From an uncultured Clostridia bacterium (GTDB taxonomy: Bacteria; Bacillota; Clostridia; Oscillospirales; Ruminococcaceae): a stretch of DNA of 64,000 nt. The notes below the pieces were generated by a model, which was not told the DNA's origin, did not search any database, and saw only the letters and a program-made list of their open reading frames with translations. The stretch covers positions 1 through 64,000 of the forward strand of contig CALZUA010000015.1 in NCBI GenBank assembly GCA_945829235.1. The letters run 5' to 3'. Shown piece by piece: positions 29,179-36,866 of this stretch (positions within the stretch are counted from its first letter, which is position 1; every line of letters starts with the position of its first letter). The translations under genes and the position numbers were made by a program.

Positions 29179-29210
29179 AAAAAATCCGTGGTTTTCCCAC
29201 GGACTTTTTT
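29179..29210 (-). terminator. Terminator of the guaB-fliB2 transcript
   Basis: A 7-bp stem (TCCGTGG with CCACGGA) inside longer A- and T-rich arms (AAAAAA and TTTTTT). It lies directly at the stop codon of the second fliB gene and can act on both strands. Confidence 0.85.
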
Positions 29211-30420
29211 ATATCGATTGAATTGTGCTCTTGAAATGATTTCGCTCAAGAAACGCGAGAATTTTCTCGGCGGCGTTTTTGTTGTGAGCGGTCGTTCGGT
29301 CAAGCTCGGAGAGCCGCTCGAGAACAAGCTTCGCGTTTCCGTCAACCGCGCAAGCCGTTGCGAGTAATTTCGCAAGTGAAACCGCCGCGCCGTAAACCAA
29401 GAAATTCTCGAAAATCCCGCGCTCCGTGAGGTAAAACGGCATTTTCAGCTCGAACAGCAAATTTTTCGCGAGATTTCGGAAAAAATACTCCCGTCCCGCC
29501 AAAATCTCGGCAAGCCGCTTTTCGCCCTCGGCGAATTTTTGCTCATCAAATTTCCCGTCAATAAACAGCGTTTCAATGCTCTCCCGCCCGAAAATCTCCG
29601 AAAAAAGCTCAGCCGCGAGCGGTTTCTCCATAAACACGCGCTCAGCAAAAAAATCTGTTTGGTCAAGCCGCTCTGCAAGCCGTTCGAGAGCCTCGGGAAG
29701 CTTGTTTTCGTTCACCTCGGAAAGCGTTTTCGCCGCCGCCGCACCGATTGCGAGATTTGTTTCAATTCCCGCGGATTTCTCGGAAATTATGTCGAAAAAC
29801 AGCCCGAAAAGCTCGTTTCGGTGAGCAAGCGCAGGATTTTTCGCGAAATCCGCTTCGCTCTCGCAGGAAACCGCCTTGAATTCAACCGTGTTTCCGCGCA
29901 CTTGAACGGTTAGCAGATTGATTTCGAGCGCGTTTTCATCGGTGAACAAAATCCGCAAAACCTCGGGACAGCTCGTGAAACAGCCCCGCGTTAGCACCGA
30001 ATTGTTGAACACGGAAACTCTCGGGTAAACCGCGCAGGTTGCCGACAAAATTTCCTCGCCAAACTGCATTTGAAGCGAGCAAAGCCCGTTCTCCGAAAGG
30101 AACGGGCAAGCCGAATTGATTAAGTTTATATTCCAAACTGTTTGCTCAGGATACAGTCCCCTGTCGGCAACGTCCGCGCCGGCTTTTTCGGCTGTATTGC
30201 AAGCCGCTTGTTCGGTACAGAGCGGATTTTGCTCTTGAACAAACGCGGCGCTGATTTTCACGCGCAGTTCCTCGGGCATTTCCCGCGAAACAAGCCGCTC
30301 GTGCTCCTCGTTTGTCCACATAACCCGCCCCCAGCGCCCGCAGCAGTTCTGCGGACACGCCGAGCCCGTGCACTTAAACTCGCCGAAATATTTCGGCTCA
30401 ATGATGTTGTAAAATCCCAT
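29209..30420 (-). CDS. FliB-like protein lysine methylase (copy 2)
   Basis: Paralogue of the flagellin methylase at 13956. The Cys signature is the same (C17, C22, C26, C27 in KCTGSACPQNCCGRWG; then ACPFLSENGLCSLQ and SATCAVYPRV), and a further Cys pair occurs in GCFTSCPEV. It is 403 residues, with an insertion of about 25 residues after the first Cys block. The start ATG abuts the guaB stop codon directly (TAA then ATG) with no clear ribosome site, implying translational coupling to guaB. It is far from flagellin, so another substrate is possible. Confidence 0.85.
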   Translation of the reverse strand: MGFYNIIEPKYFGEFKCTGSACPQNCCGRWGRVMWTNEEHERLVSREMPEELRVKISAAFVQEQNPLCTEQAACNTAEKAGADVADRGLYPEQTVWNINLINSACPFLSENGLCSLQMQFGEEILSATCAVYPRVSVFNNSVLTRGCFTSCPEVLRILFTDENALEINLLTVQVRGNTVEFKAVSCESEADFAKNPALAHRNELFGLFFDIISEKSAGIETNLAIGAAAAKTLSEVNENKLPEALERLAERLDQTDFFAERVFMEKPLAAELFSEIFGRESIETLFIDGKFDEQKFAEGEKRLAEILAGREYFFRNLAKNLLFELKMPFYLTERGIFENFLVYGAAVSLAKLLATACAVDGNAKLVLERLSELDRTTAHNKNAAEKILAFLERNHFKSTIQSI

Positions 30421-31911
<1,491 letters not shown>

Positions 31912-32148: not shown

Positions 32149-32811
32149 ATGAACGGAAGAGAAACTATAGTTTCGGCGTCGCTTCTTGCGTGCAATCTGG
32201 CGAACTTCGAGAGCGAAATCAGACGGTGCGAGAGAGCGGGCGTTGACTGGATACATTTTGACGTTATGGACGGGCATTTCGTGGAGCAAATCACCTACGG
32301 TGCGCCCGTGCTGAAATTTGTGCGGAGCGTTACGCAGAAATTGCTTGACGTTCACCTTATGGTTGAAAATCCGCAGAGCCAAATCAAGTTTTTCGCGGAC
32401 GCGGGCGCTGATTTGATTACAATTCACCTCGAAAGCAAAGGCGATATCTCGGGCTGTCTGCGGGAAATCCGCTCGCAGGGGAAAAAATCCGCGCTTGCCA
32501 TAAAGCCGGCAACCCCCGTTGAGGCGGTTTTCGATTATATCCCGCTTTGCGATATGATTTTGGTGATGACGGTTGAACCGGGCTACGGCGGACAGGGCTT
32601 TATCTATGATATGCTCCCGAAGCTCAAGGTTTTGCGCGAGTACGCCGACAACAACGGCTTTGAGAAGCTAGATATTCAGGTTGACGGCGGAATTAACGAA
32701 AAAACAGGCTTTTCCGCGGTTAATGCGGGAGCAAACGTTCTCGTTGCGGGAACGGGACTTTTTAAAGCGCCCGATATGAAATCGGTCTGCGAGGCGCTGA
32801 AAGGAAACTGA
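32149..32811 (+). CDS. rpe: Ribulose-phosphate 3-epimerase
   Basis: TIM-barrel epimerase of the pentose phosphate pathway, 220 residues (normal). Diagnostic segments: SASLLACNLANFESEIRRC, WIHFDVMDGHFV with catalytic Asp/His, DVHLMVENP, LVMTVEPGYGGQGF, and IQVDGGINEKT. The start ATG is preceded by AGAGGTTGGAG. The first of the Rnf-like genes starts 4 bases after its stop, so rpe is cotranscribed with a membrane module with which it has no obvious metabolic link. A relative acting on another pentulose phosphate cannot be excluded. Confidence 0.92.
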   Translation: MNGRETIVSASLLACNLANFESEIRRCERAGVDWIHFDVMDGHFVEQITYGAPVLKFVRSVTQKLLDVHLMVENPQSQIKFFADAGADLITIHLESKGDISGCLREIRSQGKKSALAIKPATPVEAVFDYIPLCDMILVMTVEPGYGGQGFIYDMLPKLKVLREYADNNGFEKLDIQVDGGINEKTGFSAVNAGANVLVAGTGLFKAPDMKSVCEALKGN

Positions 32812-32814
32812 TTG

Positions 32815-33939
32815 ATGACGAAGAATATTGCTCGCGAACCGGACAAGGTTTATTTCGAGCGTATGGTTATAATGGCGATGCTTCTGGTGCCCGCCGCGTT
32901 TTTACAGGGAATACGCGCGGTTTTGGTGTGCGTGATGAGCGTTGTGTGCTGTATGATTGTGGACGCGCTCTGTTGCCTCATCAGAAAAATCCGCTACAAC
33001 ATAAAGGACGCCGCCGTGCCGTTTTGGGGCTTGGCGGCGGGAATGATGATGCCCGTGAGCGTGCCCGTGGGGCTGATTATCCTGTCCTCGGTATTGTGCG
33101 TGGTTATCGGAAAGCACCTTTTCGGCGCTTCGGACAACATCATCTTCTCTCCCCCTGCGATTTCCACGGCGTTTCTCATAATCTGTTATCCCGCAGAAAT
33201 GCTCTATGCACCGAAATACGGCGAGATTTACCCCGTTTTCGCGGAATTTGAGGGCGCTCTCACCCGTTCAACCGAGTACTCGCTCAAGCTCGGAAACGTC
33301 CCCGCAAAAGGCGTTCTCGACACGCTTATGGGGTTTGTGACGGGGAGTATCGGCACGGTTTATATGCTGGTTATACTTGTGTGCGGAATATGCCTTGTGC
33401 TTCGCCGTACAAACAGCTTTGCCGCGGTTATGTCAACGCTTGTTGCATCGGCAGTTCTCGCGTTTTTCTTCCCGAGAGCGGATTTCGGTGAGGGCGGCGG
33501 TTGGAGCTCGGTTTTCTACGAATTTTCATCGGGCTATCTGCTTTTCGGAACGGTTTTCCTTGCCGCAGAGCCGTACAACGTCCCGCAGAAGCTTATGGGA
33601 AAAATCCTCTACGGCGCAACGCTCGGCTATATAACGATGATGTTCCGTTATTTCGGGCAAACCGAGGGTAGCTTTTTGTTCGCGCTGTTGGTTACGGGCG
33701 CGCTCGGGAGTAGCTTTGACCGACTTGTCGATAACCTCGTTTACTGGAAGAAAACCTACGTCAACTCCTTCGAGAAATCCAAGACAACGGTTCAGAGCGG
33801 CGGCGTAAAGCTGACGGACACGCAGGAAATTGTCATACCCGAAAAGTACAAATACAACACCCCGCCGATTGACGGCGAGATAAAAAAGCACCGCAGAAGA
33901 AAGAAGAAGGAGGACGACCGAAATGACGGCGGAAAATAA
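32815..33939 (+). CDS. RnfD/NqrB-like membrane protein
   Basis: Polytopic membrane protein of 375 residues with 8-10 hydrophobic helices, related to RnfD, the flavin-carrying membrane subunit of the Rnf ferredoxin:NAD oxidoreductase. Matching regions are FWGLAAGMMMPVSVP, KHLFGASDNIIFSPPAIS, TGSIGTVYMLVI and YLLFGTVFLAAEPYNVP. The usual FMN attachment motif with Thr (S-x-A-T-P-L) corresponds to TRSTEYS here: a Thr is kept but the surroundings differ. The C-terminal 50 residues are a charged cytoplasmic tail. Overlaps the next gene by 17 bases. No rnfB, rnfC or rnfG is present nearby. Confidence 0.78.
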   Translation: MTKNIAREPDKVYFERMVIMAMLLVPAAFLQGIRAVLVCVMSVVCCMIVDALCCLIRKIRYNIKDAAVPFWGLAAGMMMPVSVPVGLIILSSVLCVVIGKHLFGASDNIIFSPPAISTAFLIICYPAEMLYAPKYGEIYPVFAEFEGALTRSTEYSLKLGNVPAKGVLDTLMGFVTGSIGTVYMLVILVCGICLVLRRTNSFAAVMSTLVASAVLAFFFPRADFGEGGGWSSVFYEFSSGYLLFGTVFLAAEPYNVPQKLMGKILYGATLGYITMMFRYFGQTEGSFLFALLVTGALGSSFDRLVDNLVYWKKTYVNSFEKSKTTVQSGGVKLTDTQEIVIPEKYKYNTPPIDGEIKKHRRRKKKEDDRNDGGK

Positions 33940-34543
33940 GAAAAGTCACATAAACGCCGACGGTCTGTTCCGGCAGAACATCGTCCTTATGAGCGGGCTG
34001 GTCACTGCGCCGATTATTGTCGCGGCGACAACCTTACAGCGCGCGCTGGTGCTCACGCTGAGCTTTTTTGCGATTTCTTACTTCTCGATACTGATTTGCA
34101 GGTTTATTCCGCGAAAAATTGTGTATACTGTAAGAATATTACTCTACACAATTGTCGCGGCGGCACTGTTTATACCGACGGTAATCGGTCTGCGGTATCT
34201 GTTCCCCGACACCACAAAAGAGGTTATGCTGTATATCGAGCTGACTGTCGTAAACTCGCTTATTCTCGCGAAAACCGAGAGCCGCTTTTACCTCGAACCT
34301 TACGGTAGAATGGCGGTTGACGTGCTGATTTACATCGCGGGCTACGCAATGGCGGCGTTTGCGGCGGGCTTTGTGAGAGAAATTCTGTCCTACGGCACAG
34401 TCTTCGGATTTCACGTCTGCGAACCGATTGTGCCCTCGGCAAAATCTCCGTTCTTCGGGTTTATACTCGTGGGAATTTTCGCGGCGCTTTGCAGAGCGGC
34501 GGCAGGCAGGCGCGTTTCTTCACGAAAGGAGCGCGGGAAATGA
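33923..34543 (+). CDS. RnfE/NqrD-like membrane protein lacking the cluster cysteines
   Basis: Six-helix membrane protein of 206 residues that aligns with RnfE (RsxE) over its whole length: QNIVLMSGLVTAPIIVAAT in place of NNSALVQLLGLCPLLAVT, YIELTVVNSLILAKTESR in place of IPLIVTNCIVVGRAEA, then GFVREILSYGTVFG and a final SPFFGFILVG. The two cysteines that in RnfE/NqrD help hold the membrane [2Fe-2S] cluster are Ala and Ser here. Start ATG has AAGGAGG; its end overlaps the RnfA-like gene by 4 bases (ATGA). Confidence 0.78.
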   Translation: MTAENKKSHINADGLFRQNIVLMSGLVTAPIIVAATTLQRALVLTLSFFAISYFSILICRFIPRKIVYTVRILLYTIVAAALFIPTVIGLRYLFPDTTKEVMLYIELTVVNSLILAKTESRFYLEPYGRMAVDVLIYIAGYAMAAFAAGFVREILSYGTVFGFHVCEPIVPSAKSPFFGFILVGIFAALCRAAAGRRVSSRKERGK

Positions 34544-35136
34544 GCAACGTTTTTGCAAGAATTGTCAGCCTCGCGATGATTTCGGTGTTCACGCAGAACG
34601 CGATTTTCGACAGGGCTTTCGGCGCAAATGTCGCGATTTACGCTTCGCGAAAGGACGCGCACGTTGTCGGCTTCTCCATCGCAATCACCATTATGACAAC
34701 CCTCGCGAGCATTATCTCGTATCAGTTTGACGGGCTGTTGCTCCCGTTGCCTTACGGCGATTTGCTTATGCCGCTGGTTTATGTGGGGATAATCAGTCTG
34801 CTTTATGTAATCGGGCTGTTGATTTTGTGGAAAGGCTTCCCGAAAACGTTCTACAAGGTCAAAAAGTACGCGCACCTCGCGATTTTCAACTGTGCGGTTT
34901 TCGGCGCGCTTTTCCTGAACTCAACCTTCGGAAAAGGCTTCGCGGGATACGTTGGCTACGGCTTCGGCACGGGCATCGGCTTTTTCTTCGCGTGCTTTTT
35001 GCTAAATATCGCAAACGACCGTCTGTCAAGCGAAAAAATCCCGAAGATTTTCCGCGGCTATCCGATAATGATGATTTACATCGGAATTTTATCTCTCGCT
35101 TTTAACGTTTTGGTTGGTTATACAGCCGATTTCTGA
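34540..35136 (+). CDS. RnfA/NqrE-like membrane protein with one cluster cysteine replaced
   Basis: Six-helix membrane protein of 198 residues, aligned with RnfA (RsxA): FTQNAIFDRAFGANVAIYAS in place of VNNFVLVKFLGLCPFMGVS, LASIISY, LAIFNCAVFGALFLN (second Cys kept), IPKIFRGYPIMMIYIGILSLAF. The first cluster Cys is replaced by Asn. The start was set at ATG 34540, where the ATGA overlap with the upstream gene and GAAAGGAG give a good site. Third and last of the Rnf-like set; followed 28 bases later by a putative glycoside hydrolase. Confidence 0.8.
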   Translation: MSNVFARIVSLAMISVFTQNAIFDRAFGANVAIYASRKDAHVVGFSIAITIMTTLASIISYQFDGLLLPLPYGDLLMPLVYVGIISLLYVIGLLILWKGFPKTFYKVKKYAHLAIFNCAVFGALFLNSTFGKGFAGYVGYGFGTGIGFFFACFLLNIANDRLSSEKIPKIFRGYPIMMIYIGILSLAFNVLVGYTADF

Positions 35137-35164: not shown

Positions 35165-36361
35165 TTGAAAAACAAAAAAACTAACATCAAAATCAAACGA
35201 AGCAAGGTCAATCTCTACAGCAAACGTAAAAACAAACGAAAACAGGTCATCACGATTGTCATAACGGTTGTGGCGGCGTGTGCGCTCGGCGTTCTCGGAT
35301 TTGGGCTGGGAAAGCCGCTTGTTGAGTTTTTCAACAGCCGAAACAATAGTACCGGTTCCTCGGAATCCGCGTGGACTCCCCCGTCAAGCGAGGAGGTTTC
35401 CTCGGAAAGCGTTATCCCGAGTTCCTCGGAGGAAAGCTCGGAGGTTCCCGTTGAACCCGTTCGGAAAATGACCGATGTGTACTTCCTCCCCGATGACGCG
35501 GCGTTAAGCTCGGCTTCGCTCAACAGCGCGCTTGCGGCGGCAAAGGCGGCGGGTGTGGAAACGGTTGCCGTTACGCTGAAGAACGACACGGGCAATTTCC
35601 TCTACAAGAGCGAAATCAAGGGCTTGGACACTCACAATATCATCACCGGCACTCTCACCGCCGAGCAAATCTGCAAGGCGATAACGGACGCGGGCTTTAT
35701 CCCCGCGGCGAAGATAAGCACGCTGAAAGACCGTCTTTGCGGCTACAAGGACGCGACAGACGGCGGTTATCGCATAACGGGGAGCGGCTACACCTGGCAC
35801 GATGACCGCGAGGAAAAGGGCGGCAAGCCGTGGCTGTCGCCGTTCAAGTCGCAGACCTTGCAGTTTATGGGTGAAATTACGGCTGAGCTTTCTGCGGCTG
35901 GCTTCAAAAACATTATCGCCGTGAACACAATGTACCCGAAATTCCACAAGGAGGACATCTCAACCTACCTCTCCGACCTCCCGCTCTCGGACAACAAATC
36001 GCGTCAGGACGCACTTTGGAACGTTGTTGAGTCAGCGAAAGCCGGTGCCGAGAGGAACGGTGCGGAGCTTTGGATTGAGGTTGCGGGTGAAAATGTTGTT
36101 GCACAAAACCGATTGTGTACGGACGCGGAGCTTTGCGGGAGCGCGGACAAGCTCGCGGAAGTCAAGCTGATTGTGGACTACACGCCGACTGCTTCCGCTT
36201 CCGAAGCTTACACACTCGCCAAAACCTTTGCCGAGAAGCTGAAAACGGCTCTCGGTGACGCGGAATTTTATGTGGTTATCAAGGGCGGCTATTCGGAGGC
36301 GGCACTTTCGGATATCAAAAAGGCGTTCTCGGAAACCAAAATTGCGGTTTTCGGACAATAA
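35165..36361 (+). CDS. Membrane-anchored putative glycoside hydrolase (DUF4015-like)
   Basis: A 398-residue protein starting at TTG 35165 (AAAGGGGG upstream; an earlier in-frame TTG lies inside the rnfA-like gene). Basic N-terminus (KNKKTNIKIKRSKVN), one transmembrane helix (about 30-52), a Ser/Glu/Pro-rich linker (about 60-100), then a TIM-barrel-like domain: DVYFLPDDAAL, GVETVAVTLKNDTGNFLY, GFIPAAKISTLKDR, and GYTWHDDREEKGGKPWLSP. This resembles the putative glycosyl-hydrolase GHL/DUF4015 proteins on the outside of Gram-positive cells. It may be cotranscribed with the Rnf-like genes. Catalytic residues could not be assigned. Confidence 0.65.
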   Translation: MKNKKTNIKIKRSKVNLYSKRKNKRKQVITIVITVVAACALGVLGFGLGKPLVEFFNSRNNSTGSSESAWTPPSSEEVSSESVIPSSSEESSEVPVEPVRKMTDVYFLPDDAALSSASLNSALAAAKAAGVETVAVTLKNDTGNFLYKSEIKGLDTHNIITGTLTAEQICKAITDAGFIPAAKISTLKDRLCGYKDATDGGYRITGSGYTWHDDREEKGGKPWLSPFKSQTLQFMGEITAELSAAGFKNIIAVNTMYPKFHKEDISTYLSDLPLSDNKSRQDALWNVVESAKAGAERNGAELWIEVAGENVVAQNRLCTDAELCGSADKLAEVKLIVDYTPTASASEAYTLAKTFAEKLKTALGDAEFYVVIKGGYSEAALSDIKKAFSETKIAVFGQ

Positions 36362-36461: not shown

Positions 36462-36866
36462 ATGAATTTACTCAATTTGATTTCCAGTTCAAGCCAGCAG
36501 CAGGCGGCTGCTGCGGGCTCGCAGTGGGCGTCTATGCTTATGATGATTTTGCCGCTTGTGCTGATGGTAGCAATTTTCTATTTCCTTATTCTGCGCCCCG
36601 AGAAGAAGCGCAACAAGGAAATGCAGCAAATGCTCAACAACATTCAGGTTGCCGACGAGGTTGTCACAACCGGAGGCATTATCGGGCGCGTTCTGTCGGT
36701 TAAGGAGGATACTGTTCTCATCGAAACCGGAAGCGACCGCACCAAAATCCGCGTGCTCAAGACGGCGATTGCCAGAAACAACACTCACCACGAGTCCGCA
36801 ACCACTGAGGTTGAAACCGCAAAGGCTTCCAAGGACAAGAAGAGCGGCAAGAACGAAATCAAGTAA
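36462..36866 (+). CDS. yajC: Preprotein translocase subunit YajC
   Basis: Accessory subunit of the SecDF-YajC complex, 134 residues. One transmembrane helix (about 24-44) is followed by the family signature FYFLILRPEKKRNKEMQQML and the VADEVVTTGGIIGRV, VLIETGSDRTKIRVLKTAI beta region. Start ATG 36462 was chosen because ACGGAGG precedes it. The C-terminal end is a Lys/Ser-rich tail. Its stop overlaps the start of the TetR gene by one base (TAATG). secD and secF are not adjacent. Confidence 0.94.
   Translation: MNLLNLISSSSQQQAAAAGSQWASMLMMILPLVLMVAIFYFLILRPEKKRNKEMQQMLNNIQVADEVVTTGGIIGRVLSVKEDTVLIETGSDRTKIRVLKTAIARNNTHHESATTEVETAKASKDKKSGKNEIK

Follow-up and report, generated by a model that had tools for sequence, protein, structure and literature searches.

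An RnfD-, RnfE- and RnfA-type membrane module of the Ruminococcaceae that is kept under selection and very probably no longer carries electrons across the membrane

What can the membrane core of an Rnf complex still do once the residues that hold its cofactors are gone? The question is raised by a locus in an uncultured Clostridia bacterium of the Ruminococcaceae (GenBank assembly GCA_945829235.1), where three consecutive genes encode membrane proteins related to RnfD, RnfE and RnfA. The window, that is the whole stretch of DNA analysed, comprises positions 1 to 64,000 of contig CALZUA010000015.1, and the three genes, here called D' (32815..33939), E' (33923..34543) and A' (34540..35136), lie on its plus strand. 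D' matches PF03116 with 158.5 bits (cut-off 27.7), while E' and A' match PF02508 with 82.6 and 73.9 bits (cut-off 23.8), in agreement with the initial annotation, which had aligned the proteins with RnfD, RnfE and RnfA from the letters alone and placed the genes correctly. RnfD and NqrB are the only solved chains matched for D'. The scores against the NCBIfam models rnfD, rnfE and rnfA (87, 47 and 70 bits) fall far below the respective cut-offs (207, 213 and 229 bits), the nqrB/D/E cut-offs are likewise unreached, and the D'E'A' module is not regarded as a member of Rnf proper. No rnfB, rnfC or rnfG adjoins it according to a Pfam scan of the neighbouring open reading frames (ORFs), as had also been noted at the outset. 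Overall, D'E'A' is very probably a functional assembly that does not carry electrons across the membrane.

In Acetobacterium woodii the membrane [2Fe-2S] cluster between the A and E subunits is held by two Cys residues each from RnfA (C25 and C113) and RnfE (C25 and C108) (PMC11889175). These positions were read by alignment to chains A and E of the A. woodii structure 9eri and to the genome's own Rnf proteins, on the E' side with the A3 profile aligned to 9eri_E and 7zc6_E. The window has N, C, A and S at the four positions, so that one Cys out of four is kept: the first cluster Cys of A' is replaced by Asn (AFGANVAI) and the second is retained (IFNCAVFG), whereas both are gone from E' (LVTAPIIV, VVNSLILA). 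The flavinylation motif of RnfD, canonically VSTATPL, reads LTRSTEY in D', and in the riboflavin site of D' (region GASDNIIFSPPA) the Asn is replaced by Ser and the Asp by Glu. The letters given for the lost Cys residues and the altered flavin mononucleotide (FMN) motif in the initial annotation therefore agree with these alignments. The FMN loop is difficult to align and shifts between runs, and for this reason the motif as a whole is trusted over any single column; with that reservation, the FMN-bearing Thr column of D holds T in 16/16 canonical sets versus 12/85 reduced sets.

The loss of cluster Cys residues is an all-or-nearly-nothing affair. When the A/E Cys residues were scored by exact alignment column in 101 non-duplicate sets (104 sets minus three duplicate loci), 16 sets had all four, 85 had none or one, and not one had two or three. 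Among the 72 sets made up of the window, its close relatives and its family, the second A' Cys alone is kept in 45 and no Cys in 27. The 13 other reduced sets comprise eight with no Cys, four with one E Cys and one with one A Cys.

A complete rnfCDGEAB operon is present elsewhere in the window genome, on contig C9 (L005 6852-11971; L and G numbers denote loci and genomes throughout), with all four cluster Cys residues and the STAT flavin motif, and its RnfG is the sole FMN_bind match of the genome. Since this operon includes separate D, E and A genes, D'E'A' is a distinct, diverged paralogue and not the missing half of Rnf, and it is not the orphan remnant that it had been taken for. A complete rnf operon had been foreseen as a possible source of shared subunits; such an operon does exist, but a common complex does not follow, because it encodes D, E and A proteins itself. 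The idea that the missing partners of the module are encoded elsewhere was rejected on the same ground, and also because several genomes have the reduced pair only (G049, G006, G030 and G094, 90-98% complete).

The module is not peculiar to one genome, and many Clostridia of the gut type have such a reduced second copy of Rnf. A first scan of named genomes of the GTDB with E' returned 15 loci, 14 of them of the window kind (L039-L052). A sample of 119 genomes of the window's family was searched with an A' profile built from 15 rows, which gave a match of at least 134.6 bits in 84 genomes; the context was viewed for 47 of these 84, and the module is present in all 47. Four lower-scoring genomes (G303, G264, G271 and G342) have the module by context (L108-L111), bringing the total to at least 88. 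The next matches, at or below 131.7 bits, are taken to be mostly canonical RnfA. Homologues with the same D-E-A order and the same aligned Cys losses thus recur across a large family, as the initial annotation had hoped to find.

Gene order was compared over 68 A' loci, 13 from named metagenome-assembled genomes (MAGs) and 55 from the family search, between which the same species may recur. The usual order is rpe-(C')-D'-E'-A'-DUF4015, where C' is an RnfC-like protein. An rpe gene is present in 66/68 loci, the two exceptions (L045 and L077) being truncated by the start of their contigs. DUF4015 occurs in 63/68 (L046 is cut, and L096, L097, L098 and L103 are without it), and C' is present in 20/68 and absent from 48/68. 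No rnfB or rnfG was found inside the reduced modules of the window's family among the loci viewed by context; in L084 the rnfB profile gives a ferredoxin-type match of 27 bits, roughly 5 kb from the module. One genome, G340, departs from this layout in having a split module, with rpe-A' (L164 6364-7680) and C'-D'-E' (L165 7415-10402) on separate contigs and no DUF4015 match. In two loci rpe and the module are separated by a gene for a MecA-type adaptor (PF05389) on the opposite strand (L054 9493-10041 and L069 3321-3914). Three genomes (G031, G095 and G148) from genus g2, which belongs to the window's family as well, gave no DUF4015 match and a single weak A' match each. The module was apparently inherited vertically, because it keeps the same place beside rpe.

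D'E'A' is kept under strong selection. Between the window and its nearest relative, L039, the ratio of nonsynonymous to synonymous substitution rates (dN/dS, Nei-Gojobori method, NG86) is 0.080 for D', 0.032 for E' and 0.047 for A', in comparison to 0.098 for DUF4015 and 0.108 for rpe; against the more distant L040, L041 and L050 it is 0.04-0.19 for D', E' and A', at dS values above 1. Furthermore, A' has acquired new residues that are nearly fixed among 69 sets, namely R25 (62), R172 (62), Y180 (62) and G182 (66). A pseudogene or an assembly artefact was considered and rejected in view of the low dN/dS and of the same layout in many genomes, including the single-contig genomes G108 (L056) and G354 (L094).

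Reduction of Rnf has taken place more than once, as deduced from an in-place conversion in genus g14 of another family (f7). In this genus the chromosomal position that holds rnfCDGEAB followed by DUF4015 in G066 is occupied by C-D-E-A-DUF4015 in G006, G030, G094 and G049; the upstream flank common to G066 and G049 extends over about 9 kb, and the other g14 contigs were compared over a shorter stretch. Each of the five genomes has exactly one Rnf-Nqr gene pair. The reduced copies have no Cys of the A/E cluster (AE1) and a broken NADH loop. Between G030 and G066 the identity is 40% for A, 36% for E, 45% for C, 62% for D, 56% for DUF4015 and 69% for a flanking gene, whereas between G066 and the canonical but more distant G121 it is 77%, 68%, 59%, 63%, 31% and 56%, respectively; A, E and C were therefore accelerated on conversion, and D and DUF4015 were not. 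Within the reduced g14 copies dN/dS between G030 and G049 is 0.085 for D, 0.109 for A, 0.133 for C and 0.158 for DUF4015. The reduced E bears a long low-complexity N-terminal extension, and RnfE proteins with such tails were seen in L141 (4653-6197, 514 aa, N-terminal) and L144 (3875-5335, 486 aa, C-terminal). In an approximately unbiased (AU) test a tree placing L141, from G049, with five canonical f7 sets was not rejected (15.6 log units above the free tree, p 0.72). In a quick tree the deep branches are weakly supported (43) and the tips are long; 17 sets with rnfB, including L137, fall on one side of a branch supported at 95.

A second genus, g45 of family f3, has a diverged form of its own. 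One diverged pair was seen in each of the five genomes examined, which are 84-87% complete. Three loci (L137, L159 and L160) keep all six genes with three of the four Cys residues and the RnfB motif ANCGGCG gone; L162 keeps one Cys and no rnfB was found there, and in L161 no Cys, no RnfB motif of the ANCGGCG type and no rnfG were found. ANCGGCG is likely to be the site of the B8 cluster of RnfB. B8 is the electron donor to the membrane cluster (PMC11889175). In this genus the RnfB proteins (L137 5945-6712, L159, L160 and L161) are without ANCGGCG where the Cys residues of RnfA and RnfE are lost, and the motifs of RnfC, and RnfG if present, largely remain.

The RnfC-like C' protein, where present, is a remnant of a different kind. 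Both CxxCxxCxxxCP motifs for 4Fe-4S clusters are present in 20/20 aligned C' proteins of the window's family, the Gly-rich loop GLGGAGFP that serves NADH and FMN in RnfC is replaced in them by DERDG-like letters, and 13/20 have a long gap in the region of the N-terminal domain of RnfC. The C' protein of L108 (1629-3563) reaches 644 aa with a long charged C-terminal extension that is probably a coiled coil. The Asn of RnfD that contacts riboflavin is N123 in A. woodii (PMC11889175) and Asn124 in C. tetanomorphum (PMC9588780). It is kept in 32/32 reduced modules with C and in 22/53 without, and the whole NxxN motif in 32/32 versus 7/53 (Fisher p 6e-17), an association that is confounded by clade and descriptive rather than a test of coupling, because C' was lost independently no more than once or twice on the tree. 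Reduced modules that have C retain the 4Fe-4S motifs of RnfC together with the riboflavin Asn, and modules of the window type have lost both.

The DUF4015 protein of the window (35165..36361, plus strand; PF13200, 45.2 bits, cut-off 27) is read from a TTG start at 35165, the mechanical ORF start being 35114. Its AlphaFold2 model (mean predicted local distance difference test score, pLDDT, 74.9) comprises one long N-terminal helix that is likely to span the membrane, a disordered linker rich in Ser and Glu, and a barrel of the glycosidase type. The best Foldseek match is Cwp19 (5oq2, TM-scores 0.48/0.55), followed by GH20 hexosaminidases, GH191 and PgaB, and the family profile matches Cthe_0052 of C. 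thermocellum (4s1a) by sequence with an E value of 5e-27. The motif FDYxRFP, seen in L148, contains an Asp and an Arg whose role is presumably catalytic. In the window it reads AVNTMYP with both residues missing, and the Asp column holds D in 20/80 proteins of reduced modules, in 8/11 that are Rnf-linked and in 12/23 others. Hydrolase activity is doubtful, because Val replaces the Asp in the window and so few proteins of reduced modules retain D, and the window protein may bind rather than cut.

The DUF4015 profile matches 85/197 genomes of the order, 74 of them outside the window's family. The surroundings of 39 of these 74 were fetched: in ten DUF4015 comes after a canonical rnf operon, in two only rnfB precedes it at a contig start, one has the g45 form, six have reduced modules, in three DUF4015 adjoins rpe without Rnf, and in the other 17, some of them cut by contig ends, neither was in view. 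Outside the order, 6/20 fetched loci, all six from family f47, have rnf and then DUF4015 at a distance of up to about 2 kb, the 20 loci being chosen, mostly as high scorers, from 70 matching genomes. Canonical operons of several clostridial families with DUF4015 directly or within about 2 kb downstream of rnfB are L121-L125, L135, L140, L143, L144, L151, L169, L170, L173, L175, L177 and L181. The link to DUF4015 is therefore not peculiar to the reduced module. Nor is it obligate, and obligate coupling was rejected, in that four genomes of 91-98% completeness (G258, G260, G295 and G340) have the module without any DUF4015 match. The initial proposal of a link to rpe and a surface protein thus stands as a recurrent association and not as a fixed or exclusive one. 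In two f9 loci (L116 5952-8916 and L117 1-2698) DUF4015 adjoins rpe in genomes without an Rnf-Nqr match.

Loss of transmembrane redox is well supported. Pumping driven by redox in the manner of Rnf is very unlikely, because AE1, FMN-D, FMN-G and RnfB are gone and no known Rnf electron path then crosses the membrane; the initial view that the module no longer works as an Rnf electron carrier is borne out by the loss of the sites that Rnf needs. What the module does instead is proposed to be a new function. In Rnf, the A/E pair is described as alternating between inward- and outward-open states around a Na+ site formed by backbone carbonyls, driven by reduction of the membrane cluster (PMC11889175). 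It is proposed, with a probability of roughly 0.4, that D'E'A' is a gated conduit for an ion or solute that derives from Rnf and has an optional partner at the surface. The alternating-access movement of A' and E' would be retained without its redox drive and would let a small solute or an ion, either Na+ or H+, pass down a gradient or be carried along with one, in work that is passive, gradient-coupled or partner-coupled. Redox gating may persist where C' and the riboflavin site remain, the gate being lost in the window type, and the membrane-anchored DUF4015 barrel outside may act as an optional partner, perhaps on the surface vacated by RnfG.

The residues of the Na+ path speak partly for such a conduit. 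In A. woodii the residues relevant to Na+ are R67, L103, V106, N107 and E115 of RnfE and E88, T110 and T111 of RnfA (PMC11889175). The window E' keeps the equivalents of all five RnfE residues, and among 69 sets R67 is kept in 55, N107 in 51, L103 in 50, E115 in 45 and V106 in 37. Several observations weigh against the conduit. In A' the ion-pair partner E88 is lost (Leu in 37/69), T110 is T in only 9/69 and T111 is replaced by F in 57/69, so that the Na+ path is only half kept. The reduced E of g14 has a dN/dS of 0.44 and is fast along its entire length. The association between C' and the riboflavin site, on which redox gating would draw, is confounded by clade as described above. As for the surface partner, the four nearly complete genomes without DUF4015 have the module nonetheless, and G008, a complete f9 genome in a single contig, carries DUF4015 next to rpe but is devoid of Rnf-Nqr genes. 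Finally, both the transport activity and the substrate of the conduit are predictions. The structure model of A' is poor (mean pLDDT 62.8) and was left out of account.

A broader account is possible, if tentative. It supposes that Rnf had an earlier job other than electron transfer alongside DUF4015 in some Clostridia and that the redox parts were lost together, through duplication in the window's family and in place in g14. The remaining D-E-A core would be a gradient-driven transporter or an envelope transducer, gated by redox where C' and the riboflavin site are present and ungated in the window type.

The transducer itself may also be taken as the whole function, in which case a conformational change of D'E'A', or ion flow through it, would control the extracytoplasmic DUF4015 protein, with cell-wall or surface-glycan work rather than transport as the output. 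Comparable arrangements are FtsEX, which controls a wall hydrolase, and ExbBD, which drives TonB. DUF4015 accompanies A' in most of the related loci and trails rnfB in the canonical operons of several families, its gene and that of D were not accelerated in g14 as A, E and C were, and its barrel resembles Cwp19, GH20, GH191 and PgaB. However, the four genomes that have the module without a DUF4015 match and the f9 genome that has DUF4015 without an Rnf-Nqr gene fit such a role poorly, and the Val in place of the motif Asp makes a hydrolase at the end of the chain questionable. This proposal is rather doubtful.

An improbable alternative is a redox sensor or regulator, in which the remnant formed by C' and riboflavin senses the ferredoxin potential, D'E'A' is a mere anchor and the window type represents a late stage. 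The intact 4Fe-4S motifs of C' and the riboflavin Asn found in every reduced module with C agree with it, but D'E'A' of the window type is under strong selection although C' is missing from 48 of the 68 related loci. It is highly improbable that D'E'A' serves as an accessory or dominant partner of canonical Rnf, combining with RnfB, RnfG and RnfC from another locus; both sets do appear to be present in the window genome and in many relatives, yet D, E and A are already encoded within the canonical operon, and the four g14 genomes have the reduced pair alone. A decaying, functionless leftover, to which the lost cofactor residues might point, is extremely unlikely given the low dN/dS, the open frames, the recurrent gene order and the newly conserved residues in many genomes.

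In the window, the run of genes begins with rpe, which encodes ribulose-phosphate 3-epimerase (32149..32811, plus strand; PF00834, 217.7 bits). D' starts three bases past the rpe stop, the D'-E' and E'-A' ORFs overlap, and all lie on the plus strand; rpe to DUF4015 therefore probably form one transcription unit. Upstream is the divergent guaB gene for IMPDH (30421..31893, minus strand; PF00478), a neighbour only among the window's close relatives (13/14 of loci L039-L052, L045 being cut, and also L163). Downstream and outside the module is yajC (36465..36866, plus strand; PF02699), as in many of L039-L060. A 403-aa protein (29209-30420, minus strand) with a Cys-rich start, CTGSACPQNCCGRWG, adjoins guaB here and in L039, L040 and L052.

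Neither a cofactor-poor Rnf core nor a link between DUF4015 and Rnf was found described in the open-licence literature searched. The coupling of electron transfer to Na+ in Rnf is debated, and an alternating-access path through A and E is now described (PMC11889175). The family could serve as a set of natural mutants for probing the capabilities of the membrane core in the absence of redox, and it would add a further Rnf-derived lineage beside NQR, with the in-place conversion as an independent replicate. It also matters for annotation, as reconstructions of metabolism from gut MAGs could mistake the reduced genes for Rnf. In several clostridial families, moreover, the DUF4015 gene after rnfB may encode an accessory of canonical Rnf that has so far escaped recognition.

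Among known systems the closest is Rnf itself (Fd:NAD+ oxidoreductase, rnfCDGEAB, with structures from A. woodii and C. tetanomorphum), with which the module shares homologous D, E and A proteins in the same order, an RnfC-like C' in many relatives and part of the ion-path residues of E'. It differs from Rnf in having no RnfB or RnfG, no [2Fe-2S] site, no FMN motif in D and no E88 of RnfA, and its C' is without the NADH/FMN loop. Na+-NQR is a paralogue derived from Rnf that lost rnfB (PMC4014512, PMC12174285) and retains the A/E cluster (PMC11889175). D'E'A' is likewise an Rnf-derived paralogue without rnfB, but NQR gained NqrF and stayed a redox pump, whereas no replacement for the lost redox parts was found here: a scan of the neighbouring ORFs, the only part of the genome searched for NqrF, gave no nqrABCDEF or NqrF gene. 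The NQR/RNF-like flavinylation systems, in which an RnfD/NqrB protein with a C-terminal NAD-binding domain stands in a flavinylation cluster (PMC8238504), resemble the module as partial Rnf/Nqr gene sets that use the RnfD/NqrB family; D' differs in consisting of PF03116 only, with no PF00175 and no adjoining FMN_bind gene. The DUF4015 protein shares its barrel with Cthe_0052 (4s1a), by profile, and with C. difficile Cwp19, by fold, and is set apart from both by its membrane anchor, its place in a gene run of the Rnf type and the loss of the Asp and Arg of FDYxRFP.

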